From the NCBI RefSeq assembly GCF_013377855.1, contig NZ_JABXYJ010000004.1, positions 248,001-312,000 on the forward strand: a stretch of 64,000 nucleotides of DNA, read 5' to 3'. The translations under genes and the position numbers were made by a program. The DNA is from Cognatundibacterium oligocarboniphilum (lineage in GTDB: Bacteria; Pseudomonadota; Gammaproteobacteria; Burkholderiales; Burkholderiaceae_D). The notes below the pieces were generated by a model that was given only the letters and a program-made list of their open reading frames with translations, made no database searches and had not been told where the DNA came from. Positions 5,519-15,249 of the stretch are shown in pieces (positions within the stretch are counted from its first letter, which is position 1; every line of letters begins with the position of its first letter).

Positions 5519-6925
5519 ATGATTTACGATCCTGTTCCTATTGCCGCCATCGCTACCGCACCCGGACGCGGCGGCATCGGCGTCGTCCGCATTTCTGGCA
5601 GAAATCTGGCACCCATTATCCGCGCTTTGTTTGGCAATACGGTGTTGAAGCCGCGCCATGCCAGCTATCTGCCATTCCGGCACGCTGATAACAGCATCAT
5701 CGATCAGGGGATTGTGCTGTATTTCAACGCCCCGCATTCCTACACTGGCGAGGAGGTGCTCGAACTGCAGGGGCACGGCGGCCCGGTGGTGATGCAGATG
5801 TTGCTGGCGCGCTGCCTTGAGGCCGGCAAAGACGGCGGCTTGCGGCTGGCGCAACCGGGTGAATTCACCCAGCGTGCTTTTCTGAACGACAAGCTTGATC
5901 TGGCGCAGGCGGAGGCGGTGTCCGATCTGATCGAAGCCTCCACCGAAGCGGCGGCCAAGTCCGCATCGCAATCTTTGTCCGGCGCGTTTTCCAAAGTGAT
6001 CCATGAACTGGTCGACAAGGTTGTGCATCTGCGCATGCTGGTCGAGGCGACGCTGGATTTTCCGGAAGAGGAAATCGATTTTCTGGAAAAATCCGATGCA
6101 CGCGGCCAGCTCACCACGATACAGGCGGCGTTGCAAAAAGTATTTGACCAGGCCGCACAGGGCGCTTTATTGCGCGCCGGTCTGAATGTTGTTCTGGCAG
6201 GTCAGCCGAATGTCGGCAAATCGTCCTTATTGAATGCCCTGGCCGGCGATGAGGTGGCCATTGTCACACCGATCGCCGGTACCACCCGCGACAAAGTGAC
6301 AGAGACCATCCACATCGAAGGCATACCGCTGAACATCATTGATACTGCCGGTATCCGCCATGAACATGATGATGCGGAGCCGGGTGGCATCGTCAATGCG
6401 ATTGACACGGTCGAGCGGATCGGCATCGAACGTACCTGGGCGGAGGTCGACAAGGCAGATGTGATTCTGCATCTGCTGGATGCCAGCCGCGGCCCGACCC
6501 GTGCCGATGAGGCAATCGTGGCGCGCTTTCCCGATGGTGTGCCGGTGATCCGCGTATGGAACAAGATTGATCTGTCCGGCCATCATCCCGGCGTCGACCA
6601 GATGAGTGATGCCACGCATATCTACCTGTCGGCGCAGGAGCATGCCGGCATCGAGTTATTGCGTCAGGAGTTATTGCGCATCGCCGGCTGGGAGCAGACC
6701 GGCGAATCGCTTTACCTGGCGCGCGAACGCCATCTGATCGCCCTGAAACACGCCCATGAACATCTCCAGCAGGCTGCTGAATATGCGGCACAGAACGATC
6801 AGTCGCTGGATCTGTTTGCGGAAGAGCTGCGTCTGACGCAGGATCGTCTGAACAGTATCACCGGCGAATTCAGTTCCGATGATTTGCTGGGGGTGATTTT
6901 TTCCCGCTTTTGTATCGGCAAGTAA
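5519..6925 (+). CDS. mnmE: tRNA uridine-5-carboxymethylaminomethyl modification GTPase MnmE
   Basis: MnmE, with MnmG, modifies uridine 34 at the wobble position of several tRNAs. The 468-residue protein has the N-terminal folate-binding domain (about 1-120), a helical domain and an inserted G domain with P-loop GQPNVGKS (228-235), G2 AGTTRD, G3 DTAGIR (275-280) and NKID. The family C-terminus FCIGK, with the catalytic Cys, is intact. The stretch after DTAGIR ([17 protein letters not shown]) looks longer than in many homologues. It follows yidC after a terminator, the usual order near the origin, and is the last core gene before the foreign island. Confidence 0.97.
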
Positions 6926-6953
6926 GCCGACTCAGTATCCCCCTCTGAAAAGA

Positions 6954-6974
6954 GTGCAGGTTCGATTCCGGACC
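6954..6974 (+). other. Possible decayed tRNA T-arm fragment at the island edge
   Basis: The piece GTGCAGGTTCGATTCC followed by GGACC resembles the T-arm and acceptor end of a tRNA, with the hallmark GGTTCGATTCC, but the 5-bp stem does not close and no other tRNA arms precede it. It lies exactly between mnmE and the acquired gene cluster, where an integration scar would be expected. The rest of 6926-7097 holds no gene and no clear terminator. Confidence 0.2.
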
Positions 6975-7097
6975 AAGATAGTATGGCTTTTATGCAACGA
7001 AAACGTTAGCTATACCCGCATGGCACTGCTCTTTTAGATGCTGTTTATTTCCGAATATCAGCAAATCACCGCGTTCCATCAAAAAATTGTAATCCGT

Positions 7098-7907
7098 TTA
7101 TTTGCAGTTGTAGGCACCAAAACACGCCTTAAAAAGCACCTGTAGCACCGACAAATTCCCCTTGAAACTGCTGATCTTAGTTGGTACCTCGCCTTTTGGA
7201 TAACGCCGAATAGTGGGTAGCTCCACACATCGATAGCCAAGTTTAGGTACCCGGTACGACAAATATGCCAGCAGTTCATAGGTCTGGAATATATTGCGAA
7301 ACGGAGCAATTTTCGGATCAAGTAACATTTTTCGGCTGTAGGCCCTAAACCCCTGTGTGGTGTCTGTCCAATTGAAACCAGAAAACAGGCTCAGCATAGG
7401 TGCATGGATGAAGCGGATAGCAAAGTCACGGGATAACGGCGTGTTTTCAGCCACGCCGCCGGGCACAAAGCGTGATGCCTGAACAAAATCCAGCCCTTGC
7501 TGCAGCTCCTCGATAAAGCGCGGAATAGCTGCCGGGTCGTCCTTGTCATTGCCGTCAATCGAGATGATGCCCTCGTAACCCTGATCCAATGCAAATGCAT
7601 AAGCACAGCGTAGTTGCCCACTCAATTTTCCCGGTCCGGTCTTGACCAGCAGGCCACGCACACCTTGCGCCTGCAAGCGATCAATGGCCAAAGAACCATC
7701 GGTACTGCCACCGTCGACGATGATGATGTCTGCCATGGCGGCAATCTGCAAGGTTGCCATCCGATCCAGTAGACTGCCAATTCGCGCCCCTTCGTTAATC
7801 ACCGGGATCACTACGCAATAGGTGTGTTGCCTCTCCAACCATAGGGGTGTATTGAACGTAGGCACCTGCCATGAGGTACGCACACTTGTATCGATAGATG
7901 TATTCAT
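7098..7907 (-). CDS. Family 2 glycosyltransferase, DPM/GtrB-like catalytic domain
   Basis: It probably transfers a sugar from a nucleotide donor to a carrier lipid or a growing glycan at the cytoplasmic membrane face. The 269-residue protein is one GT-A domain: a start strand YCVVIPVINEGARI near residue 30, the nucleotide-binding IIIVDGGSTDGS near 62, a metal-binding SIDGNDKDDP near 116, and TDTTQGFRAYSRKML near 180, which resembles polyprenyl-phosphate sugar synthases. It lacks C-terminal membrane helices. It is the last gene of the seven-gene minus-strand operon, 18 bp after the SMR-type gene. The sugar used cannot be told from sequence. Confidence 0.8.
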   Translation of the reverse strand: MNTSIDTSVRTSWQVPTFNTPLWLERQHTYCVVIPVINEGARIGSLLDRMATLQIAAMADIIIVDGGSTDGSLAIDRLQAQGVRGLLVKTGPGKLSGQLRCAYAFALDQGYEGIISIDGNDKDDPAAIPRFIEELQQGLDFVQASRFVPGGVAENTPLSRDFAIRFIHAPMLSLFSGFNWTDTTQGFRAYSRKMLLDPKIAPFRNIFQTYELLAYLSYRVPKLGYRCVELPTIRRYPKGEVPTKISSFKGNLSVLQVLFKACFGAYNCK

Positions 7908-7925
7908 GTTTTTATTCCGACAAAC

Positions 7926-8282
7926 TCAGGCGACCCGCGCCGTAATCAGCACCACACCGGTAACCACCAGCAAAATGCCTAGGCCGGTGGTCCAGTAAAA
8001 CGGCTCTTTGAAAAGCAGCACCGACAGCAGCGCCACAGCCGCCACCGCACCCGAAGTCAACACGGGGTGCGCCACATTCAGTGGCAAGCGCGAGAGTGCA
8101 GCGGCATACAGCAGAAATGCGGCCCCATACAAGCCTAGGCCCAGCCAAAATGGCCAGTTGCTCATGGTACCCAAGGGATCACGCAACGACGGAAACTGGC
8201 GCGGTGGCATCATCGCCAACTTGACTAACACACTGGCCGATGCGTTGGCGGTAATGCCCAGAATCAAAATCAGCCACTTCAT
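7926..8282 (-). CDS. SMR/EamA-type four-helix membrane protein, candidate lipid-linked sugar flippase subunit
   Basis: The 118-residue protein has four predicted membrane helices (about 1-20, 45-65, 70-90, 95-115) and the small-multidrug-resistance or half-EamA pattern, with HPVLTSGAVAAVALLSVLLFKE in the third and fourth helices. Such short proteins act as dimers; ArnE/ArnF relatives flip undecaprenyl-phosphate-linked aminoarabinose. Between a glycosyltransferase and sugar-modifying genes this role is more likely than drug export, but that is inference from context. The start overlaps the stop of the upstream isomerase-like gene by 4 bp. Confidence 0.72.
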   Translation of the reverse strand: MKWLILILGITANASASVLVKLAMMPPRQFPSLRDPLGTMSNWPFWLGLGLYGAAFLLYAAALSRLPLNVAHPVLTSGAVAAVALLSVLLFKEPFYWTTGLGILLVVTGVVLITARVA

Positions 8283-9115
8283 GAACTCAGACCCTTGGCT
8301 TTACTGCGGTAGTGAGCAATGGCTACCCCAAGCGCGCGCTCAATCGACTCCAAATGCGATTCCTGCTGAGTGGTCAACATCTCAATAGTGACCAGGTGGT
8401 GTGGCAGATTCTGTGACAAGGCCTGGCACATGGCGGAATGGTCCGTGTTACCATCGCCCAGCGGCAACAAATTGGGTTCACTCGCGTGCACATGACCGAT
8501 CAGTCCAGCGCTCATCTGCAACACAGTGGCCGGGTCTTCCCCATTGATGGTTAACGCCCCGGTGTCAAACTGCATGCGGATAGCTGTGTGGGCAATTTGG
8601 CGGACCACCTGCTCAGTCTCAAAGCTAGTGGTCATGAAATTAGCACCATAGCAAGTGGGATTAGGCTCCAGACAAATCATCACGCCGTGTGAGGCCGCTA
8701 TATCGCCTAGTCGCCGGAAAAACGACGTGGCGATTGCCATCGTCTCATCATAACTCAGACCACTACGGTCTCGGTTTTTGGGAGAACCAAAAACCATGCG
8801 TGGAGCCCCCAGAATCTCGCCGATCCGGCACACCGCGTCCAGATGGTTCAGCAGCGCAGTCTGTAACTCTGGCGTGCCAAAGACGTTAAGCCCCTGGGTG
8901 TTAAAGAGCAAGGCCTGCATACCGCTAATTTCGATGCCGCGGTCCATCCACCATTGCCTGACCCGCAAGATGTCAGCTTCCATGGCCTCCCCCGGCTTTG
9001 GAAAATACTTGCCAGGGACAATGTCGATGGCATCCACTTTGTAGCGTTGCAGCAAGGCGGCAAGTGCATCGTCTTCTGTTATGTCCCAGGCAATGTTAGA
9101 AATGCCCAGCCTCAT
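8279..9115 (-). CDS. Sugar phosphate isomerase/epimerase (xylose isomerase-like TIM barrel)
   Basis: Members of this family isomerise or epimerise sugars, or work on other polyols, in a metal-dependent TIM barrel. The 278-residue protein begins MRLGISNIAWDI and has barrel strands with likely metal ligands: MICLEPNPTCYG (Glu on strand 5 or so), IRMQFDTGAL (Asp) and GHVHASEPNLLPLG (His and Glu). These positions match the AP_endonuc_2 fold. It overlaps both neighbours by 4 bp, so it is translationally coupled within the cluster and probably makes or interconverts the cluster's special sugar. The substrate is unknown. Confidence 0.75.
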   Translation of the reverse strand: MRLGISNIAWDITEDDALAALLQRYKVDAIDIVPGKYFPKPGEAMEADILRVRQWWMDRGIEISGMQALLFNTQGLNVFGTPELQTALLNHLDAVCRIGEILGAPRMVFGSPKNRDRSGLSYDETMAIATSFFRRLGDIAASHGVMICLEPNPTCYGANFMTTSFETEQVVRQIAHTAIRMQFDTGALTINGEDPATVLQMSAGLIGHVHASEPNLLPLGDGNTDHSAMCQALSQNLPHHLVTIEMLTTQQESHLESIERALGVAIAHYRSKAKGLSS

Positions 9116-9903
9116 GCGCTCCCCCCATCTTTGAGTGGCAGAGTCTTTGGTTCCGACTGAGCATAGGCACGAACGGCCAGAAGGGTTTCGCGTTGGCTGT
9201 ATTGGTAGTGGCCCTTACCACCAAATACCGCGGCATGGCGTGTGCGCATGTCATAGATGACTGCTTGGTTGGCCGAAGGTTGGTCGAACGTTTTGCCAAA
9301 TCCCAATTCCGACAACTCTGCTACGCTGATTGGCTCGGCGGTCAGATGTACCAACTTCAAGTCTGCTTGCAGCGCCGTTTGAATGTCCCTCCACAAATTG
9401 ACCATTGGATAGAACTGAAAAATACCACGGCTGTCGATAGACTGCAGATTGTTGTCGTTCAAAAAATCAAAGATCACATTCTTGCGCAGACCGGGGCCGA
9501 CAAGACCGGGGAGCCGTACAATCAGGTGCCTGGGAAAGTGACTCTCAATAAATTTCTCAAGCAAACGCCGATGTAGACCATAGGCATGCAAACCTTCCTC
9601 GTCAACCGAGGTATCCTCATCAACGCCGATAGGGTATTTGAAGACATCGACGGTGCTGATCAGAACGAAGGTGTTGCAGGTGACGGTCTTGAGGTGCGCG
9701 ATCAGCCTGTGGATGTTTTGACTGTCGGCAAGCGGATCCCGATTGGCAATCCATTTTTGTGCTGGGGCAGCAGCGCAAACAACCGTATCAAAAACATTAC
9801 CTTCAATAGCGCTTATAGTCCTAGAGCGATAAGTTACTCCAAAATCTGTTTGACTTAACAGAGTACCCCCAACAAAACCCGTGTAACCAATTAGTGCATT
9901 CAT
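9112..9903 (-). CDS. NAD-dependent epimerase/dehydratase-like protein (SDR fold)
   Basis: The 263-residue protein starts with a short Rossmann motif GYTGFVGG (about 6-13), has VLISTVDVF near residue 82 and an active-site-like YGLHRRLLEK (Tyr and Lys four apart) near residue 110, the extended-SDR arrangement. The first glycine motif is compact and the protein is shorter than usual sugar-nucleotide epimerases (about 310-340), so it may be a reductase or a divergent epimerase. It overlaps the isomerase-like gene by 4 bp and follows the large membrane protein by 14 bp. The role in sugar synthesis is inferred from fold and context. Confidence 0.68.
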   Translation of the reverse strand: MNALIGYTGFVGGTLLSQTDFGVTYRSRTISAIEGNVFDTVVCAAAPAQKWIANRDPLADSQNIHRLIAHLKTVTCNTFVLISTVDVFKYPIGVDEDTSVDEEGLHAYGLHRRLLEKFIESHFPRHLIVRLPGLVGPGLRKNVIFDFLNDNNLQSIDSRGIFQFYPMVNLWRDIQTALQADLKLVHLTAEPISVAELSELGFGKTFDQPSANQAVIYDMRTRHAAVFGGKGHYQYSQRETLLAVRAYAQSEPKTLPLKDGGSA

Positions 9904-9917
9904 TGCTACTCTCTTTA

Positions 9918-11480
9918 TTATTTTGGTGTGGCGAATACATAGCCATTACCTGAATCGTGAAATATGTAATTTTCTTGAATAAATCGATTAATGGCCGGTA
10001 AACGATCACGCATGTGCCGACCATAAATATTCATAGACCAGAAGGGTGAGTCGTAGACGATAAGCCCAGGTGGATTATTTCTTAATTCGTTTAATACAGA
10101 AGCCTCGTCATTCTTTGATATATACACGGCATATGTGTATTTGGTGCAATAAGTTTTTTTTAATAGCAGCGAGAATACTCCTTCGTTTGACCACAAGAAC
10201 ACGCAATCAAAATTATATCGATTTGCTGCGTCTATCCCATAATGTTTACCATCAATCAACACTTGATCAGGCAATGGATGAACTAATTGTCTAGCCTTAT
10301 TAAGATCAGAGACAATCGAATTAGAAAATATTATTATTAATAATAATTCGACGCCCCAAATAATCCTTTTATCTGATCTACTGAGCACTGCGTAGGTTCT
10401 ATTTACATAACTGAACAACTGAGCTAGATGTTCATTCACTCCACGGACCATGTCTGATTTTGGTGGCATTAAGATTAGCAAAAAAAACGAAGGCCAAACA
10501 AAGTAATAGCTAGTTGGAAATCCTGGCAAACTGTACATCTTGGTGAGAAAAACCAATTGAATAAAGATGAGCCCCAACGCAATAGGTAGCAATCTTTGTT
10601 TTCCCTGATGAGTTGACTTTATGATGGCATGAAATATAACAACTAGCGAAAAAATCAGCATTGCTAATGCGCCAGGCAATGCTGGCAGTTTATACTTAAA
10701 AGCTAAAAACCAGACGTCTTGAGTATTTTTTAACCAATAAACAATGTTGTGATAATTATCTAGAAGTGAGCCAAAGATCGTTGATTGCGAAACAATCACC
10801 AACGTGGCGATGTAGCCAAGAGCAATAGCGAACGCGGAGGCTCCGTTTCTCTGAAAAAGCAGCGTCACTGCATAAATTATTACCCATATTGCAGACAAAA
10901 TACCACGATCGTAGCTCCAATAAAAAGACATAGCGGCAAATGCACCTGATGCAATCATATGGAAATAGGCACTTGATACACTGCGGCAATACAAAGCCCT
11001 TGCACCGACCCAAAGACTAAGAAGTAAGAATAGATCCCGAGTTCCTAAAAAAGCTTGTTGTTTTTTTAGTGGATCATCCCCTGTGGCGATAGCCATCCAA
11101 AGAAACAATACGTAGAACAATAGACCCCATACTATTTTCTCTGACTGCTCCCTTAGCATGATGCGAGACAAATCTATATACAAAACCCAACATAAGGCTA
11201 CCGCGAGAATATTTAAAAAACGAGTCCAGATCAATAGATGACTATCACTTGCAATCACGCTCGCTAAAATTGATGGCAAATAATCCATTGCCCCATGTAT
11301 CAACATTGGAAAAACAGATATTCCGGAGTAGTAACTACGAATGGCATGGAGATTACCAATGTATTCACCCTCGTGGAACCCGTCGGTTAATGGCTTGGTT
11401 AAGTTAACATCGAATGCCAGTCCAATCGGAAATAATATAAAGACAAAAACAAATATCAGTTTTTTGGTGAATTGGGTCAC
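9918..11480 (-). CDS. Multi-pass membrane protein, probable GT-C-type glycosyltransferase
   Basis: The 520-residue protein has about ten to eleven hydrophobic helices between residues 8 and 410 and a hydrophilic C-terminal part of about 110 residues, likely periplasmic. After the first helix comes DGFHEGEYIGNL, an acidic loop like the catalytic loop of GT-C enzymes that take sugars from polyprenyl phosphate. No named family is recognised with certainty; alternatives are an O-antigen polymerase or a general membrane protein. The gene is markedly A+T-richer than all others here, a sign of transfer. It abuts the oxidoreductase gene upstream without a gap. Confidence 0.6.
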   Translation of the reverse strand: MTQFTKKLIFVFVFILFPIGLAFDVNLTKPLTDGFHEGEYIGNLHAIRSYYSGISVFPMLIHGAMDYLPSILASVIASDSHLLIWTRFLNILAVALCWVLYIDLSRIMLREQSEKIVWGLLFYVLFLWMAIATGDDPLKKQQAFLGTRDLFLLLSLWVGARALYCRSVSSAYFHMIASGAFAAMSFYWSYDRGILSAIWVIIYAVTLLFQRNGASAFAIALGYIATLVIVSQSTIFGSLLDNYHNIVYWLKNTQDVWFLAFKYKLPALPGALAMLIFSLVVIFHAIIKSTHQGKQRLLPIALGLIFIQLVFLTKMYSLPGFPTSYYFVWPSFFLLILMPPKSDMVRGVNEHLAQLFSYVNRTYAVLSRSDKRIIWGVELLLIIIFSNSIVSDLNKARQLVHPLPDQVLIDGKHYGIDAANRYNFDCVFLWSNEGVFSLLLKKTYCTKYTYAVYISKNDEASVLNELRNNPPGLIVYDSPFWSMNIYGRHMRDRLPAINRFIQENYIFHDSGNGYVFATPK

Positions 11481-12605
11481 TTAAAGACTTTCATTTTCTA
11501 ATTTCGTTAGTACATCATAAATATTATCAATCTTCCCGCCCAATACCGAATAACACCCCGGCAATTCCGGATGCTTCTCAAATAAAATAGGTCGCCCGTC
11601 ATCCCCTTCGTTTTTCACCAAAATGGTTTTCACTTCAAACAAAGATTCGACATATTTAGCATCCAGTACGGCAGGCAGATAGCGACCCACATCACGTACC
11701 ATACGGTCAACCCGCGTCGCTTGGTCATAGTTGGTTAATTTTTGGTAAGGATCTATTCCTTGTGCATCATTCCAGTGCAGATGCGGCGTGTAACGCACAT
11801 GGGACAGAGTGTGCAGACCACGCGCTGGAAACGGCATCATCGAAAAGAACGGACCATCCATTACCGTGATACCCAGCCCCTTCAGTGCGGGCGGAGCCTG
11901 CATCAACGCCATCTCAGTTATTTCCTGTTTCAGCCGGGTTTGGGTACCAGGAAAATCGCCCTTGAATTGGTTCAACCCACTGTAAGTGCAGTTAAAGATG
12001 AAGCGGCTGGTGTAAAGCTCCTCATAGCCTTGTTCGGGGGCGGCTGTCACCTGTAGCCCGCCATGTGGGCCATTAGCTATAGCCGTCACCCGAGTTTGCA
12101 AACGCGTCTGAATGCCGCATGCCTTCAATTCCGCAGCAACCCAACTGGCCAGCTCGGTTGTATCAAAGGCGTACTCTTCAACCAGAAAGACAGCTTCAAT
12201 CAGGCGCGGCTCAAACAAAGCCGCTTGTGCGGGTGCTGCGGGTTGAATTTTGGCACCAATTTCATGACAAAAGCGTTCAAACTGCCGGGCGGTGACTTTG
12301 GAGTTGCGCCGGGCGATGGCGTATAGCTTGGTGAAGTCCTGTTTGACTGCATTCGGCCAGTCACGCACAAACTTGGGTAGATTAACTCGGCTGCGGTAGG
12401 CCGTGGTGAAGCTACGTGGGTAATGGTAGCCGTTGTGTACGCGGGCCTGGTTGTTGTAGGACGCACGCTTTAATAAAGCTGGCTCACGCTCGATCAACAT
12501 AATGCGTTTGAACCCGCGTTCCTTGGTCAGGTAAATGGCAATGGCAGCACCGTAAAAGCCACCACCGATGATGATTGCATCTTGTTGGGCGGTGGCGCCA
12601 CTCAT
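11481..12605 (-). CDS. FAD-dependent oxidoreductase (DAO family)
   Basis: The 374-residue protein has an N-terminal dinucleotide-binding motif IIIGGGFYGAAIA (11-23) followed by LIEREPALLKRAS, the ADP-ribose-binding edge of D-amino-acid-oxidase-like flavoproteins, and a C-terminal FAD segment GCYSVLGGKIDNIYDV. Relatives oxidise amines, amino acids or polyols. Inside a sugar cluster it could oxidise a sugar or amino-sugar intermediate, which is inference. It overlaps the upstream glycosyltransferase by 4 bp and abuts the membrane gene downstream. Confidence 0.72.
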   Translation of the reverse strand: MSGATAQQDAIIIGGGFYGAAIAIYLTKERGFKRIMLIEREPALLKRASYNNQARVHNGYHYPRSFTTAYRSRVNLPKFVRDWPNAVKQDFTKLYAIARRNSKVTARQFERFCHEIGAKIQPAAPAQAALFEPRLIEAVFLVEEYAFDTTELASWVAAELKACGIQTRLQTRVTAIANGPHGGLQVTAAPEQGYEELYTSRFIFNCTYSGLNQFKGDFPGTQTRLKQEITEMALMQAPPALKGLGITVMDGPFFSMMPFPARGLHTLSHVRYTPHLHWNDAQGIDPYQKLTNYDQATRVDRMVRDVGRYLPAVLDAKYVESLFEVKTILVKNEGDDGRPILFEKHPELPGCYSVLGGKIDNIYDVLTKLENESL

Positions 12606-13639
12606 TTTGGCACGCGTTCAAGGCCAACGCCCATAAGCCCATTAGGCGCAATTGATTTTGCGGCGACTTCTTCGATATTGAGCTTTTCGTGCCGGGTCAT
12701 GCGGGCGCTAGTGAACTCTTGCCCCACATGGTAGAGCGGACCTTCGTTCGACAGACTAACCATATTGACGATATATTCGCCAAGAACCAGCAACACCATT
12801 GAGATCAGAAAGAACATGCCGGACTGCTGGAGCGACAGACTCACCCAACCGGGCGCCACATCCGACTTAAACAAACCAACAGCCACCACATAAAACGAAT
12901 ACAGCAGGTTGGCGAACGCGCCGAACATGGACAGCATGGTGACCAAGCGCATGGGCGCACGTGTGGTTGACACAAGTAGCCTCATGCCCCGATCCACGCT
13001 TTCCCACAAGCGCTTGGGCTGCTCTGTTTTGGGTGGCGCGCTGTAGTCAAGGTTGCTTTGCGCAAAACCGCCAGTGGCCGGCAAATGACGGTAGCTTACG
13101 GCGGGTTGTGGGTGCTGCAGAATGAAGTTAACCACGCGTTTGCTCAGCACCCGATATTGCGGTGCCTCCTTGGCAAGGTGAATGCCATTCAAGCGCTTGT
13201 AGAGGCTGTTAAAAGTCGCATACGCAACACGGTATGCCAGACTTTGCGGTGATTTTTGCGCATTGCTGGCAAAAACGACCTCGACACCACTGACTGCCTT
13301 GTCCAGCATCGTCGGTAAAAAGTTGACATCGTCTTCCAAGGGATTAATCACAGCGACAAAGTCGCCTAGGGCGTTTTCCAAGCCGACCCAGGACGCGGTG
13401 TCAGCATCGACCTCTTTGGTCAGGGCGTACACCTGCAAATTGGCGAACCCCTGCTCACCCGTGAGCACTTTCAAAACGGCAACGCTGTCGTCGTTTGAGG
13501 CGTTGTCCACAATGATAAGTTCGTAGTCGCTGACCAGCCCGGCCAAACCGACCTCGGCATCTTTAAGTATTTTTTCAAGCTGAGTGGCTTGGTTACGCAT
13601 TACCAAAACAACAGACAAGAAAACCGGAAACAATGCCAT
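12602..13639 (-). CDS. Family 2 glycosyltransferase with C-terminal membrane helices (GtrB/ArnC-like)
   Basis: The 345-residue protein is the promoter-proximal gene of the cluster. Its N-terminal GT-A domain begins SVVLVMRNQATQLEKIL and has YELIIVDNASNDDSV near residue 38; the metal motif region reads VAVINPLEDDV. Two hydrophobic helices near residues 230-255 and 270-292 fit the membrane anchor of bactoprenol-phosphate glycosyltransferases. The ATG at 13637-13639 has AAAGG upstream. It probably makes a lipid-linked sugar for the GT-C-like protein. Sequence similarity to the other GT2 protein in the cluster is low, so they are not duplicates. Confidence 0.72.
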   Translation of the reverse strand: MALFPVFLSVVLVMRNQATQLEKILKDAEVGLAGLVSDYELIIVDNASNDDSVAVLKVLTGEQGFANLQVYALTKEVDADTASWVGLENALGDFVAVINPLEDDVNFLPTMLDKAVSGVEVVFASNAQKSPQSLAYRVAYATFNSLYKRLNGIHLAKEAPQYRVLSKRVVNFILQHPQPAVSYRHLPATGGFAQSNLDYSAPPKTEQPKRLWESVDRGMRLLVSTTRAPMRLVTMLSMFGAFANLLYSFYVVAVGLFKSDVAPGWVSLSLQQSGMFFLISMVLLVLGEYIVNMVSLSNEGPLYHVGQEFTSARMTRHEKLNIEEVAAKSIAPNGLMGVGLERVPK

Positions 13640-13694
13640 TAAAACCTTTCTTATTACTATTATTTTCCAACTTGAGTGAATTGTTGAGTTGCAA

Positions 13695-13703
13695 ATTTTA
13701 CCA
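13695..13703 (-). promoter_or_regulatory. Possible extended -10 promoter of the glycan cluster
   Basis: Read on the minus strand, TGGTAAAAT is an extended -10 element about 56 bp before the first gene of the operon, in a very A+T-rich tract. No good -35 hexamer is seen, so this is a suggestion only. Confidence 0.3.
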
Positions 13704-13962
13704 CGAAGTCAAAAAAATTTTAAGTAAATTTAAAAAGCATCCGTAAATAAACGATAATTCGTTTCCATATGCGATTCCGATGACTGTGCTTTGAGGCGAG
13801 ATGACAAAAGCGAATCACGGGAAATCACAGATATTTTTTTGGGAGCTGCGTGCAGCCAGTAATTCCAGTGCACCAACGTGTGCCAGACCAACCTTACCAA
13901 AGCAGAGTTGGTGGTGGGCGCAAACCAAAAGAACCACAACTACTCTTAGAAAGCATCGTCTA

Positions 13963-14340
13963 AATGCTGCCAACCGGATTACCTACCCCATCCACTGCCA
14001 CATGAATCTTGCTGGTTAATCCGTTACGCGAACGACCTATGGCTTGCCGACCTGTTTTTTGGGTGTCGGCTGAATGTAGATGAACTCGCACAATTGTGCT
14101 GTCTACCATCAATAATTTCATATCCCTGCATGGCTGACTGCCTCAACGATGCTTTGCCATACACCCGTCTCGCCCCAACGTTTGAACCGGATGTACGTCG
14201 TTTGCCAACTCCCCAGTTCCACCGATAAATCCCGCCATGGTGAACTGGTGCGAACTATCCATAGAACAGCCTCAATAAATAAGCGGTTACTTGCTATGAC
14301 CAACCTTTATCTCCCGCCTTATCAGGCAACAAGGACGCTA
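13963..14340 (-). pseudogene. Decayed IS5-family transposase fragment
   Basis: Read on the minus strand, three pieces in different frames give parts of an IS5/IS427-type DDE transposase: LPDKAGDKGWS (about 14298-14335), then NRLFIEAVLWIVRTSSPWRD and WQTTYIRFKRWGETGVWQSI (14118-14303), then MKLLMVDSTIVRVHLHSADT and GRSRNGLTSKIHVAVDGVGN (13963-14110). The first DDE aspartate (MVDST) is present. Frameshifts lie near 14300 and 14115, and the C-terminal half is missing after 13963. No terminal inverted repeats were found. It marks the outer edge of the acquired cluster and cannot encode an active enzyme. Confidence 0.88.
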
Positions 14341-14862
14341 ATTTATGTCACTAGTCATCCCTTAATATCTTGCGTACTGCACTTATTTCGACATCTCAAA
14401 TTTCAAATACCGAATGTAAACACATTTTACTAAATTTAACAGTCCCCTTGCACAGACGGAAAAATATAATTCTACCTATCGTAAAATAAGTACGCAATCT
14501 GGTACGCAGCCAGTCGCCTGCACAGAATTTTTGGATGTCACAAAAAAGGATGCGTAAGCATCTGTAAATTAATCCCATGAAAGAGCATGTCAACTTGCCG
14601 ATATTTGGTTGCTTGAAGAATTAGAGCAATACGCACGATGGTTCTCTTTGGCTTAGAGGGTTTCCTGAACGTCTAGTATGCTTAGAAGGTACGCAGAGGC
14701 TCGGATACAGGCACTTTTTGCAATTGAAACACTTAATAACATAACATTTTTTTTAGTACACAAAATGACTGACGTTTTCAGAGAGTGTTTCTGGGTAAGG
14801 GTTTCATGGTGTTGTCTAGCTTCTGTATCGAAACCGTTTTTTGTGAATCACAAATATCCTGA
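14341..14862. other. Gene-free A+T-rich stretch
   Basis: Between the transposase remnant and the YciI-like gene no frame with family features, RNA gene or clear terminator is seen. Short frames at 14396-14593 (minus) and 14678-14881 (plus) have no ribosome-binding site and unnatural composition. It is probably eroded DNA left by insertion and deletion. Confidence 0.5.
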
Positions 14863-15159
14863 TCAGATCGGTGTGGACTGATCGGGAAATGCTTTTGACC
14901 AGTGCAGGATTTCAACGCTGGCACGCAATCCATGTTGCCAGAATGGGTCTGTGACGATGAGTGCATTGACTGCTGCTTTGCCTGCTGCCTCAACGATCCA
15001 GCAGGCTCCCAGAGGCGCCTGCTCTGGTTCGATACGCAGTGATCCTGCGACCCGGATTGACTGCTGATGCTGGCTGAGCCAGTCAAGATGGGCCGCCATG
15101 TGCTGCTGACGTACCGTCAGCTTATCCTGGTGGTCGTGAAATATCAGGATGAAGAGCAT
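14863..15159 (-). CDS. YciI-like domain protein
   Basis: YciI-like proteins are small ferredoxin-like alpha/beta barrels of unclear enzymatic role, often with a conserved His/Asp pair. The 98-residue product begins MLFILIFHDHQDKLTVRQQH and ends with the family pattern DPFWQHGLRASVEILHWSKAF; the acidic/His motif FHDH near the N-terminus is in place. A TTG one codon upstream is possible, but the ATG at 15157-15159 is preferred. It is divergent from the amidotransferase gene. Function in this organism is unknown. Confidence 0.82.
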   Translation of the reverse strand: MLFILIFHDHQDKLTVRQQHMAAHLDWLSQHQQSIRVAGSLRIEPEQAPLGACWIVEAAGKAAVNALIVTDPFWQHGLRASVEILHWSKAFPDQSTPI

Positions 15160-15249
15160 CAAAATCCCCGTGCAGGTCAGTACAGCATTTGATCATAAAG
15201 AAGTTTGCATATGTTAAGGTATGTGGATACCGATTTTTCTGTGTGCATC

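Follow-up and report, generated by a model that had tools for sequence, protein, structure and literature searches.

Which sugar-transfer system is encoded by seven tightly packed genes of Cognatundibacterium oligocarboniphilum, and does it belong to one of the known pathways? The genes lie on the minus strand at 7098–13639 of a 64,000-nucleotide stretch (contig NZ_JABXYJ010000004.1, positions 248,001 to 312,000; this whole stretch is called the window here) and were named, in order of transcription, GT2b, DAO, GTC, SDR, TIM, SMR, and GT2a. An earlier note, made from the letters of the DNA, had described them as an acquired, complete set that makes a sugar, links it to a lipid, flips it, and attaches it to a surface glycan. 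All seven open reading frames (ORFs) are present with the described overlaps of 4 bp or gaps below 20 bp: the 4-bp overlap occurs in three gene pairs, DAO and GTC abut (0 bp), and the remaining gaps measure 14 and 18 bp. The family calls of the note (two GT2 enzymes, an SMR protein, an isomerase-like protein, an SDR, and a flavoprotein) agree with Pfam, the SDR below threshold. The lipid-linked-sugar logic of the set is supported, and the genes very probably encode an extracytoplasmic glycosylation system.

A pattern scan covering 84,980 species, each represented by one genome, identified 259 relatives of DAO. The 80 best of them, with at least 66% identity, were examined together with up to 10 kb of flanking sequence. 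Seventy of these loci had at least 6 kb after and at least 1.1 kb before DAO. With a gene counted as present above 45–50% identity, all six genes other than GTC were found in 58 of the 70 full-flank loci, and in 56 they were colinear on one strand in the conserved order GT2b-DAO-[slot]-SDR-TIM-SMR-GT2a. The other two are L026, in which the order is rearranged, and L086, which was scored as non-colinear because its best SMR match sits in a second partial copy. This second TIM-SMR-GT2a copy of L086 (Pseudomonas) starts at about position 6062 and lies upstream of the full cassette. The remaining 12 loci comprise five with GT2b and DAO only, four without SMR, two without GT2a, and one without both. 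The six genes are thus a conserved cassette, found together more often than chance would allow and shared by many bacteria that are not related, and GTC stands outside the fixed set. This agrees with the notion that the genes form a unit in relatives, at least for six of the seven. The idea of one complete fixed set had to be given up, as GTC is swappable and has its own base composition (38.5% GC vs 50–59% in the six neighbouring cassette genes).

In more distant loci, SDR, TIM, DAO, GT2a, and GT2b were detected by tblastn in L095, L096, L097, L099, L101, and L144. SDR, TIM, DAO, and GT2a, but not GT2b, were detected in L098 and L102, of which L102 gave a weak GT2b profile match (E 4.6e-7). 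Gene joins are claimed only for L097, L098, and L147, and long ORFs in other loci (e.g., L057, L063, L064, and L087) were left out. For L073 and L084, a fusion suggested by long DAO/TIM ORFs was rejected, as the two genes lie in different frames and the lengths are extensions by the crude gene caller.

GTC (9918–11480) encodes 520 amino acids from a GTG start and had no match in Pfam or NCBIfam. The earlier note had suggested a GT-C fold, and structure prediction bore this out. An AlphaFold2 model built from nine sequences (pLDDT 70.9, pTM 0.78) was used in a structural search, in which the top 47 matches (Z 8.2–15.1) were all GT-C-type and consisted of 43 GT-C enzymes and four GPI-transamidase chains, which we take to be the GT-C-like PIG-U; the next match was FtsW at 5.9. 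ArnT (5f15) aligned over 380 residues with Z 14.0 and rmsd 5.7, and other matches were PMT, OST, AftB, and EmbB. In Foldseek, all seven matches at E ≤ 0.001 were GT-C. Conserved acidic residues past the first membrane helix are a trait of GT-C enzymes. Within the subfamily, D33, F35, H36, G38, and E39 are invariant (9/9 sequences; motif DxFHxGE[YF]), and the acidic D33 and E39 come after the first predicted helix (residues 3–23). Judged from the model, GTC is a membrane glycosyltransferase with GT-C fold.

GTC was also considered as a fixed member of the cassette and rejected, as a tblastn match was obtained in just 11 of the 80 loci, with 26–40% identity. In the 56 colinear loci, the distance between DAO and SDR is below 400 bp in 41, above 900 bp in 14 (as in the window), and 428 bp in one. 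Counted with a crude gene caller that misses some, 51 of 65 loci have a multi-helix protein in this slot or among the two genes that follow GT2a. The 52 multi-helix proteins (one per locus plus that of the window) fall into 21 unrelated clusters (BLASTP 1e-8). When 61 slot-type proteins, the window's included, were scanned, the only matches at E 0.001 were to PMT_2 (three proteins), GtrII (two), and an amino-acid permease (one). The permease shows that the multi-helix set is not clean; the GT-C fold was assessed for the GTC of the window. The GC content of the variable gene is below that of the core in 48 of 56 loci, but the difference is modest when 37 further membrane genes from these loci serve as the comparison (p = 0.013). 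The attaching enzyme therefore seems to be an exchangeable part, hypervariable among loci. A family of multi-helix proteins of about 1,060 amino acids was additionally seen past GT2a in 11 loci (L018, L027, L030, L031, L035, L074, L077, L079, L084, L087, and L092); the L018 member had no Pfam match.

Both GT2 proteins belong to PF00535. GT2b (12602–13639) carries C-terminal membrane helices and is closest to GtrB (5EKE, E 2e-24), for which D94, D96, R122, D157, R200, and others are named as required in PMC4728340. These residues were mapped by hand via a HMMER alignment of 76 GT2b sequences. The position of D94 holds Asp in 70 sequences and Asn in six, including the window. D96, the second Asp of the DxD motif, is absent from all 76, R122 is replaced by Asn and K132 by Tyr in all 76, Asp is found at the D157 position in a single sequence, and Lys or Arg at the R200 position in 58. 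In Sphingomonas and L102, still less of the motif region is kept (by eye). GT2b is thus probably a non-catalytic (pseudo-)glycosyltransferase partner, as far as an alignment can tell. It lacks most residues that GtrB requires, which leaves GT2a alone as the likely donor synthase; the pair of GT2 enzymes proposed in the earlier note is therefore probably reduced to one. GT2b directly adjoins DAO in all 80 examined loci.

GT2a (7098–7907) has dolichol-phosphate mannose synthase (DPMS) as its best match in the Protein Data Bank (PDB; 5mlz, E 1.8e-12) and is proposed to be the polyprenyl-phosphate sugar synthase. Among 67 sequences, DGN[DN]KDDP is invariant and [TS]DTTQG[FY]R near-invariant, and no clear membrane helix was seen on inspection. 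On the Psychrobacter plasmid pA22P4, GT2b and GT2a form one ORF of 592 amino acids, of which the record annotates the GT2a part alone; a lost stop codon or a sequencing error may be an alternative explanation for this join. On a Cereibacter plasmid, GT2a and a part matching PMT_2 form one annotated protein of 839 amino acids. If taken at face value, the two joins would tie donor synthesis, pseudo-glycosyltransferase, and transfer together.

SMR (7926–8282) is a four-helix SMR/EamA protein (Pfam EamA, Multi_Drug_Res) with partial matches to ArnF/ArnE far under cut-off and is the proposed lipid-linked-sugar flippase. Its place is taken by GtrA in Sphingomonas and Cereibacter and, by position and helices, also in L102. 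A second layout, found in L022, L033, L040, L042, and L047, combines GT2b and DAO with another GT2, an aldo/keto reductase, and GtrA in all five loci, and a DLD motif was read in this GT2 in four of the five. As GT2b and DAO are kept there with other parts, they behave as a unit in this layout, and the class of the reductase can change. Three of the five loci share proteins of 164 and 421 amino acids, which had no Pfam match in L042.

The three remaining genes point to redox chemistry. DAO (11481–12605) encodes a DAO-family flavoprotein (PF01266) and is proposed to oxidise a sugar hydroxyl to a ketone. Its model (pLDDT 84.8) is nearest in fold to E. coli GlpD (Z 30.1, rmsd 3.0, 347 aligned), a quinone-linked enzyme that oxidises a secondary alcohol. 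TIM (8279–9115) is an AP_endonuc_2 TIM-barrel protein, a predicted sugar epimerase, in which a Glu-Asp-His-Glu metal-site pattern (E150, D184, H210, and E245) is kept in 71 of 71 sequences. The best PDB matches of its profile are ketose 3-epimerases, and the 3-keto-D-glucoside 4-epimerase 6wn6, which we take to be YcjR, follows more weakly (E 7.6e-7, match 25 of 26). Compared with four E. coli members of the family, YcjR scored best (27.4 bits), Hyi reached 16.8 bits, and two gave no match. E. coli YcjR has the same four metal-site residues in the alignment. SDR (9112–9903) is a reductase-like protein, weakly RmlD-like and under the Pfam cut-off, with GxxGxxG and Tyr108 kept in 72 of 72 sequences. 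Two viral contigs of IMG/VR carry the three genes as well (L146 7989–10703 and L147 6506–9032): DAO, SDR, and TIM follow one another directly on a contig of 386 kb, and on a 70-kb contig, which has a terminase gene, a single protein of 501 amino acids comprises SDR and TIM and is followed by DAO. This links the three genes strongly. It is likely that the three proteins work as an oxidation-epimerisation-reduction triad.

In the proposed mechanism, GT2a would load a hexose onto undecaprenyl phosphate. DAO, which the GtrB-like and probably inactive GT2b would keep at the membrane, would then oxidise a ring hydroxyl to a ketone, TIM would epimerise the carbon adjoining this ketone, and SDR would reduce it again, resulting in an epimerised lipid-linked sugar (e.g., of the gulo-, allo-, altro-, or ido-type). 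This sugar would be flipped by SMR and attached to a surface glycan or protein by the exchangeable GT-C enzyme. In favour of this, the Pfam/NCBIfam scan found no nucleotidyltransferase among the seven proteins. What the analysis shows is the gene set and its conservation, the exchange of the GT-C enzyme and the flippase, the GT-C fold, the motifs retained or lost, and the fusions; the chemistry of every step is inferred, and so are the lipid and the acceptor, the sugar, and the order of events. An extracytoplasmic glycosylation system that includes the triad, in whichever order, is the reading towards which we incline. If the triad is accepted, epimerisation on the lipid and epimerisation before loading appear evenly balanced; the earlier note had the sugar made first and linked afterwards, which is one possible order, with modification after linkage about as likely. 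The most specific version, in which a dead GtrB homologue holds the polyprenyl-phosphate-hexose and docks DAO, oxidation, epimerisation by TIM, and re-reduction take place on the lipid, and the core feeds rare hexoses to many unrelated GT-C enzymes while being spread by phages and plasmids, is offered tentatively. Its odds are lowered by L102, in which GT2b is not beside DAO, and by being the product of those of its steps.

A number of observations weigh against the proposed mechanism. GT2b keeps acidic residues (D103 in 76/76, D104 in 73/76, and E/D158 in 76/76), which might leave room for a rewired activity. In L102, GT2a lies between GT2b and DAO and is itself next to DAO, so the pairing of GT2b and DAO is weaker outside the close relatives. 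GT2a carries DGN where DxD is expected, and SDR has YxxxR, with Arg replacing the usual Lys, in all 72 sequences. With regard to gene content, the four loci without SMR (of 70) lack only this gene, 14 of 65 loci are without a multi-helix partner (some missed by the crude caller), the 7.5-kb contig L100 holds GT2b and DAO with no other cassette gene found, and L095 of Azospirillum has the five enzymes with no annotated flippase or GT-C alongside. On L146 and L147, which carry the viral triads, 17 kb of each contig were read and gave no match to any of GT2a, GT2b, SMR, and GTC, and on the phage contig L145 (7962–9023) a DAO relative has an aminotransferase-like gene and further sugar genes as neighbours (by eye). 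Because of these viral triads without polyprenyl glycosyltransferases in the stretches read and the neighbourhood in L145, the triad may use a nucleotide sugar as its substrate, and the viral triads are evidence that the three enzymes may act without a lipid carrier. Finally, amine-oxidising enzymes of the DAO fold also match the DAO model (Z 26–29), and as this fold is common to many amine oxidases, it does not fix the substrate of DAO.

The viral stretches lead to the alternative that survives best, in which the triad acts on a cytoplasmic nucleotide sugar, GT2a loads the finished rare sugar onto undecaprenyl phosphate, SMR flips it, and the GT-C enzyme transfers it. GT2b would then either anchor GT2a or act as another transferase that has diverged, and the joined GT2b-GT2a ORF of Psychrobacter as well as the position of GT2a beside DAO in L102 fit an anchor role that does not involve DAO. 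The constant adjacency of GT2b and DAO in the 80 loci and the occurrence of both without GT2a in the second layout suggest instead an oxidase at the membrane. This order, which is included in the system with triad favoured above, is a serious possibility, if on balance not the expected one.

It is rather unlikely that DAO, TIM, and SDR perform another modification, giving, for instance, a keto, amino, branched, or acid sugar that is still used as a lipid-linked donor. Enzymes of the DAO family often act on amines and the TIM family includes dehydratases and isomerases, which would suit such a role. Against it stand the complete Glu-Asp-His-Glu site of TIM together with its epimerase matches, and the finding that a Pfam/NCBIfam scan of the seven cassette proteins detected no aminotransferase, methyltransferase, or acyltransferase. 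A Gtr-like system that adds glucose only and in which the metabolic genes hitch-hike is very improbable, even though the layout of GT2, flippase, and GT-C resembles gtr operons: DAO, SDR, and TIM match the GT2 and flippase genes in frequency and colinearity, and in the second layout a reductase of another class stands in for SDR.

The cassette nevertheless shares much with Gtr O-antigen glucosylation, namely, a polyprenyl-phosphate sugar synthase, a small flippase, an exchangeable GT-C beside a conserved donor and flippase core, and mobility, with relatives on plasmids and in a temperate-phage-like contig. It differs in three additional conserved redox and epimerase genes, a second, DPMS-like GT2, a degenerate GtrB-like GT2b in which D96 and R122 of GtrB are lost and D157 nearly so, and an SMR/EamA flippase in the window, with GtrA just in some relatives. 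Similarities to the Arn pathway are the fold match of GTC to ArnT, an ArnC-like GT2, and relatives of the SMR flippase, whereas no counterpart of ArnA, ArnB, or ArnD is present among the seven and matches are far under the curated cut-offs. The E. coli YcjS-YcjR-YcjQ enzymes provide the same sequence of oxidation, epimerisation next to a ketone by a TIM barrel, and reduction; their RefSeq names are D-guloside 3-dehydrogenase (ycjQ), 3-dehydro-D-guloside 4-epimerase (ycjR), and D-glucoside 3-dehydrogenase (ycjS). The Ycj genes lie within a sugar-uptake and phosphorylase cluster, and YcjQ and YcjS gave no match to the DAO or SDR profiles of the cassette.

The nearest concept is described in PMC11127046: lipid-linked pentofuranoses for which the epimerase is DprE1/E2 or an SDR and which, once flipped, serve GT-C enzymes. 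Mycobacterial DprE1/DprE2, with the SMR protein Rv3789 and GT-C arabinosyltransferases, and ORF12-15 of Citrobacter youngae share redox epimerase(s), a lipid-linked donor, a flippase, and GT-C with the cassette. These pathways, that of Citrobacter ORF13 included, start from phosphoribosyl pyrophosphate (PRPP) and make pentofuranoses, whereas the donor synthase of the cassette is a GT2, and the cassette has a DAO/GlpD-type oxidase, a TIM-barrel epimerase, and a pseudo-GtrB. No PRPP-dependent polyprenyl phosphoribosyl transferase was found among the seven cassette proteins. DprE1 has a VAO-type flavoprotein fold; the cassette flavoprotein is not VAO-type and belongs to the DAO family with a GlpD-type fold. 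The cassette thus lacks defining features of Gtr, DprE1/E2, and Arn, though it probably works like them.

A literature search turned up no title or abstract on this gene set, which is weak evidence of novelty, as most subscription papers lay outside its coverage. The authors of PMC11127046 (2024) state that they are unaware of epimerases in O-antigen side-chain glycosylation other than their own and DprE1/E2. If the proposed mechanism is true, the cassette would represent a sizeable, unrecognised hexose branch that uses different enzymes, and could supply glycan engineering with rare-sugar donors. It would also provide testable candidates for the rare hexoses that bacteria display on their surfaces, and a pseudo-glycosyltransferase that is conserved. 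The flanking genes were rejected as a guide to the acceptor, since among 96 flanking ORFs no family was matched by more than six; glycosyltransferases and polysaccharide genes were among the families matched.

The cassette seems to have been acquired by this bacterium, as the earlier note had claimed. A strong DAO match was found in none of 35 congeners, some with incomplete genomes, in which three weak, short matches to the FAD motif were obtained (E 4e-4 to 6e-4). Among 398 genomes sampled from the phylum, five, with its own genome counted, had DAO at E 1e-30 or better, and in 195 genomes of the family a full-length relative of GTC was found in none besides its own, with one partial match of 29%. 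The gene adjoining the cassette was named mnmE by eye, and the interval from mnmE to a class-II glutamine amidotransferase gene (window 6925–15205) is a variable site, the content of which differs in six of six congeners (L134–L139). In the nearest congener, whose MnmE is 96% identical, the position of the cassette is taken by about 2.3 kb of other DNA, and in the five others by 0.5–3.6 kb unlike the window. Two pairs among the six congeners look alike in this interval.

A remnant of an IS4/5-family transposase (DUF4096, E 4.8e-17) lies upstream of the cassette at 14118–14303 on the minus strand. Promoter candidates near 13659–13723 were rejected as background (10 found vs 8.7 expected across the region). 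Integration at a tRNA was rejected as well, since ARAGORN found no tRNA in the window or the stretches of the six congeners, att repeats not being searched for; a short T-arm-like stretch, at which ARAGORN calls no tRNA, was seen by eye just past mnmE (window about 6955–6990).

DAO gave no match at E 1e-20 in 50,697 annotated phage records and matched 12 of 72,556 plasmid records, all below 60% identity, of which two at 28% may be outside the family; four of the 12 were examined. On the Psychrobacter plasmid pA22P4, the cassette is accompanied by a multi-helix protein of 479 amino acids, and the other annotated genes serve replication and mobilisation. On the viral contig L144, the six cassette genes and a weakly PMT_2-like protein have a phage tail gene on one side and, on the other, a CI-like repressor and a second regulator, a context that presumably resembles a P2-type temperate phage. 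In such phages, a site of this kind is where surface-conversion genes are carried. A concatenated core tree (62 rows) intermixes Beta- and Gammaproteobacteria with 11 class changes, of which the well-supported branches force four for Beta- and three for Gammaproteobacteria, and one row of Chloroflexota falls inside a well-supported set with seven Betaproteobacteria, a mixing of classes as horizontal spread would produce.

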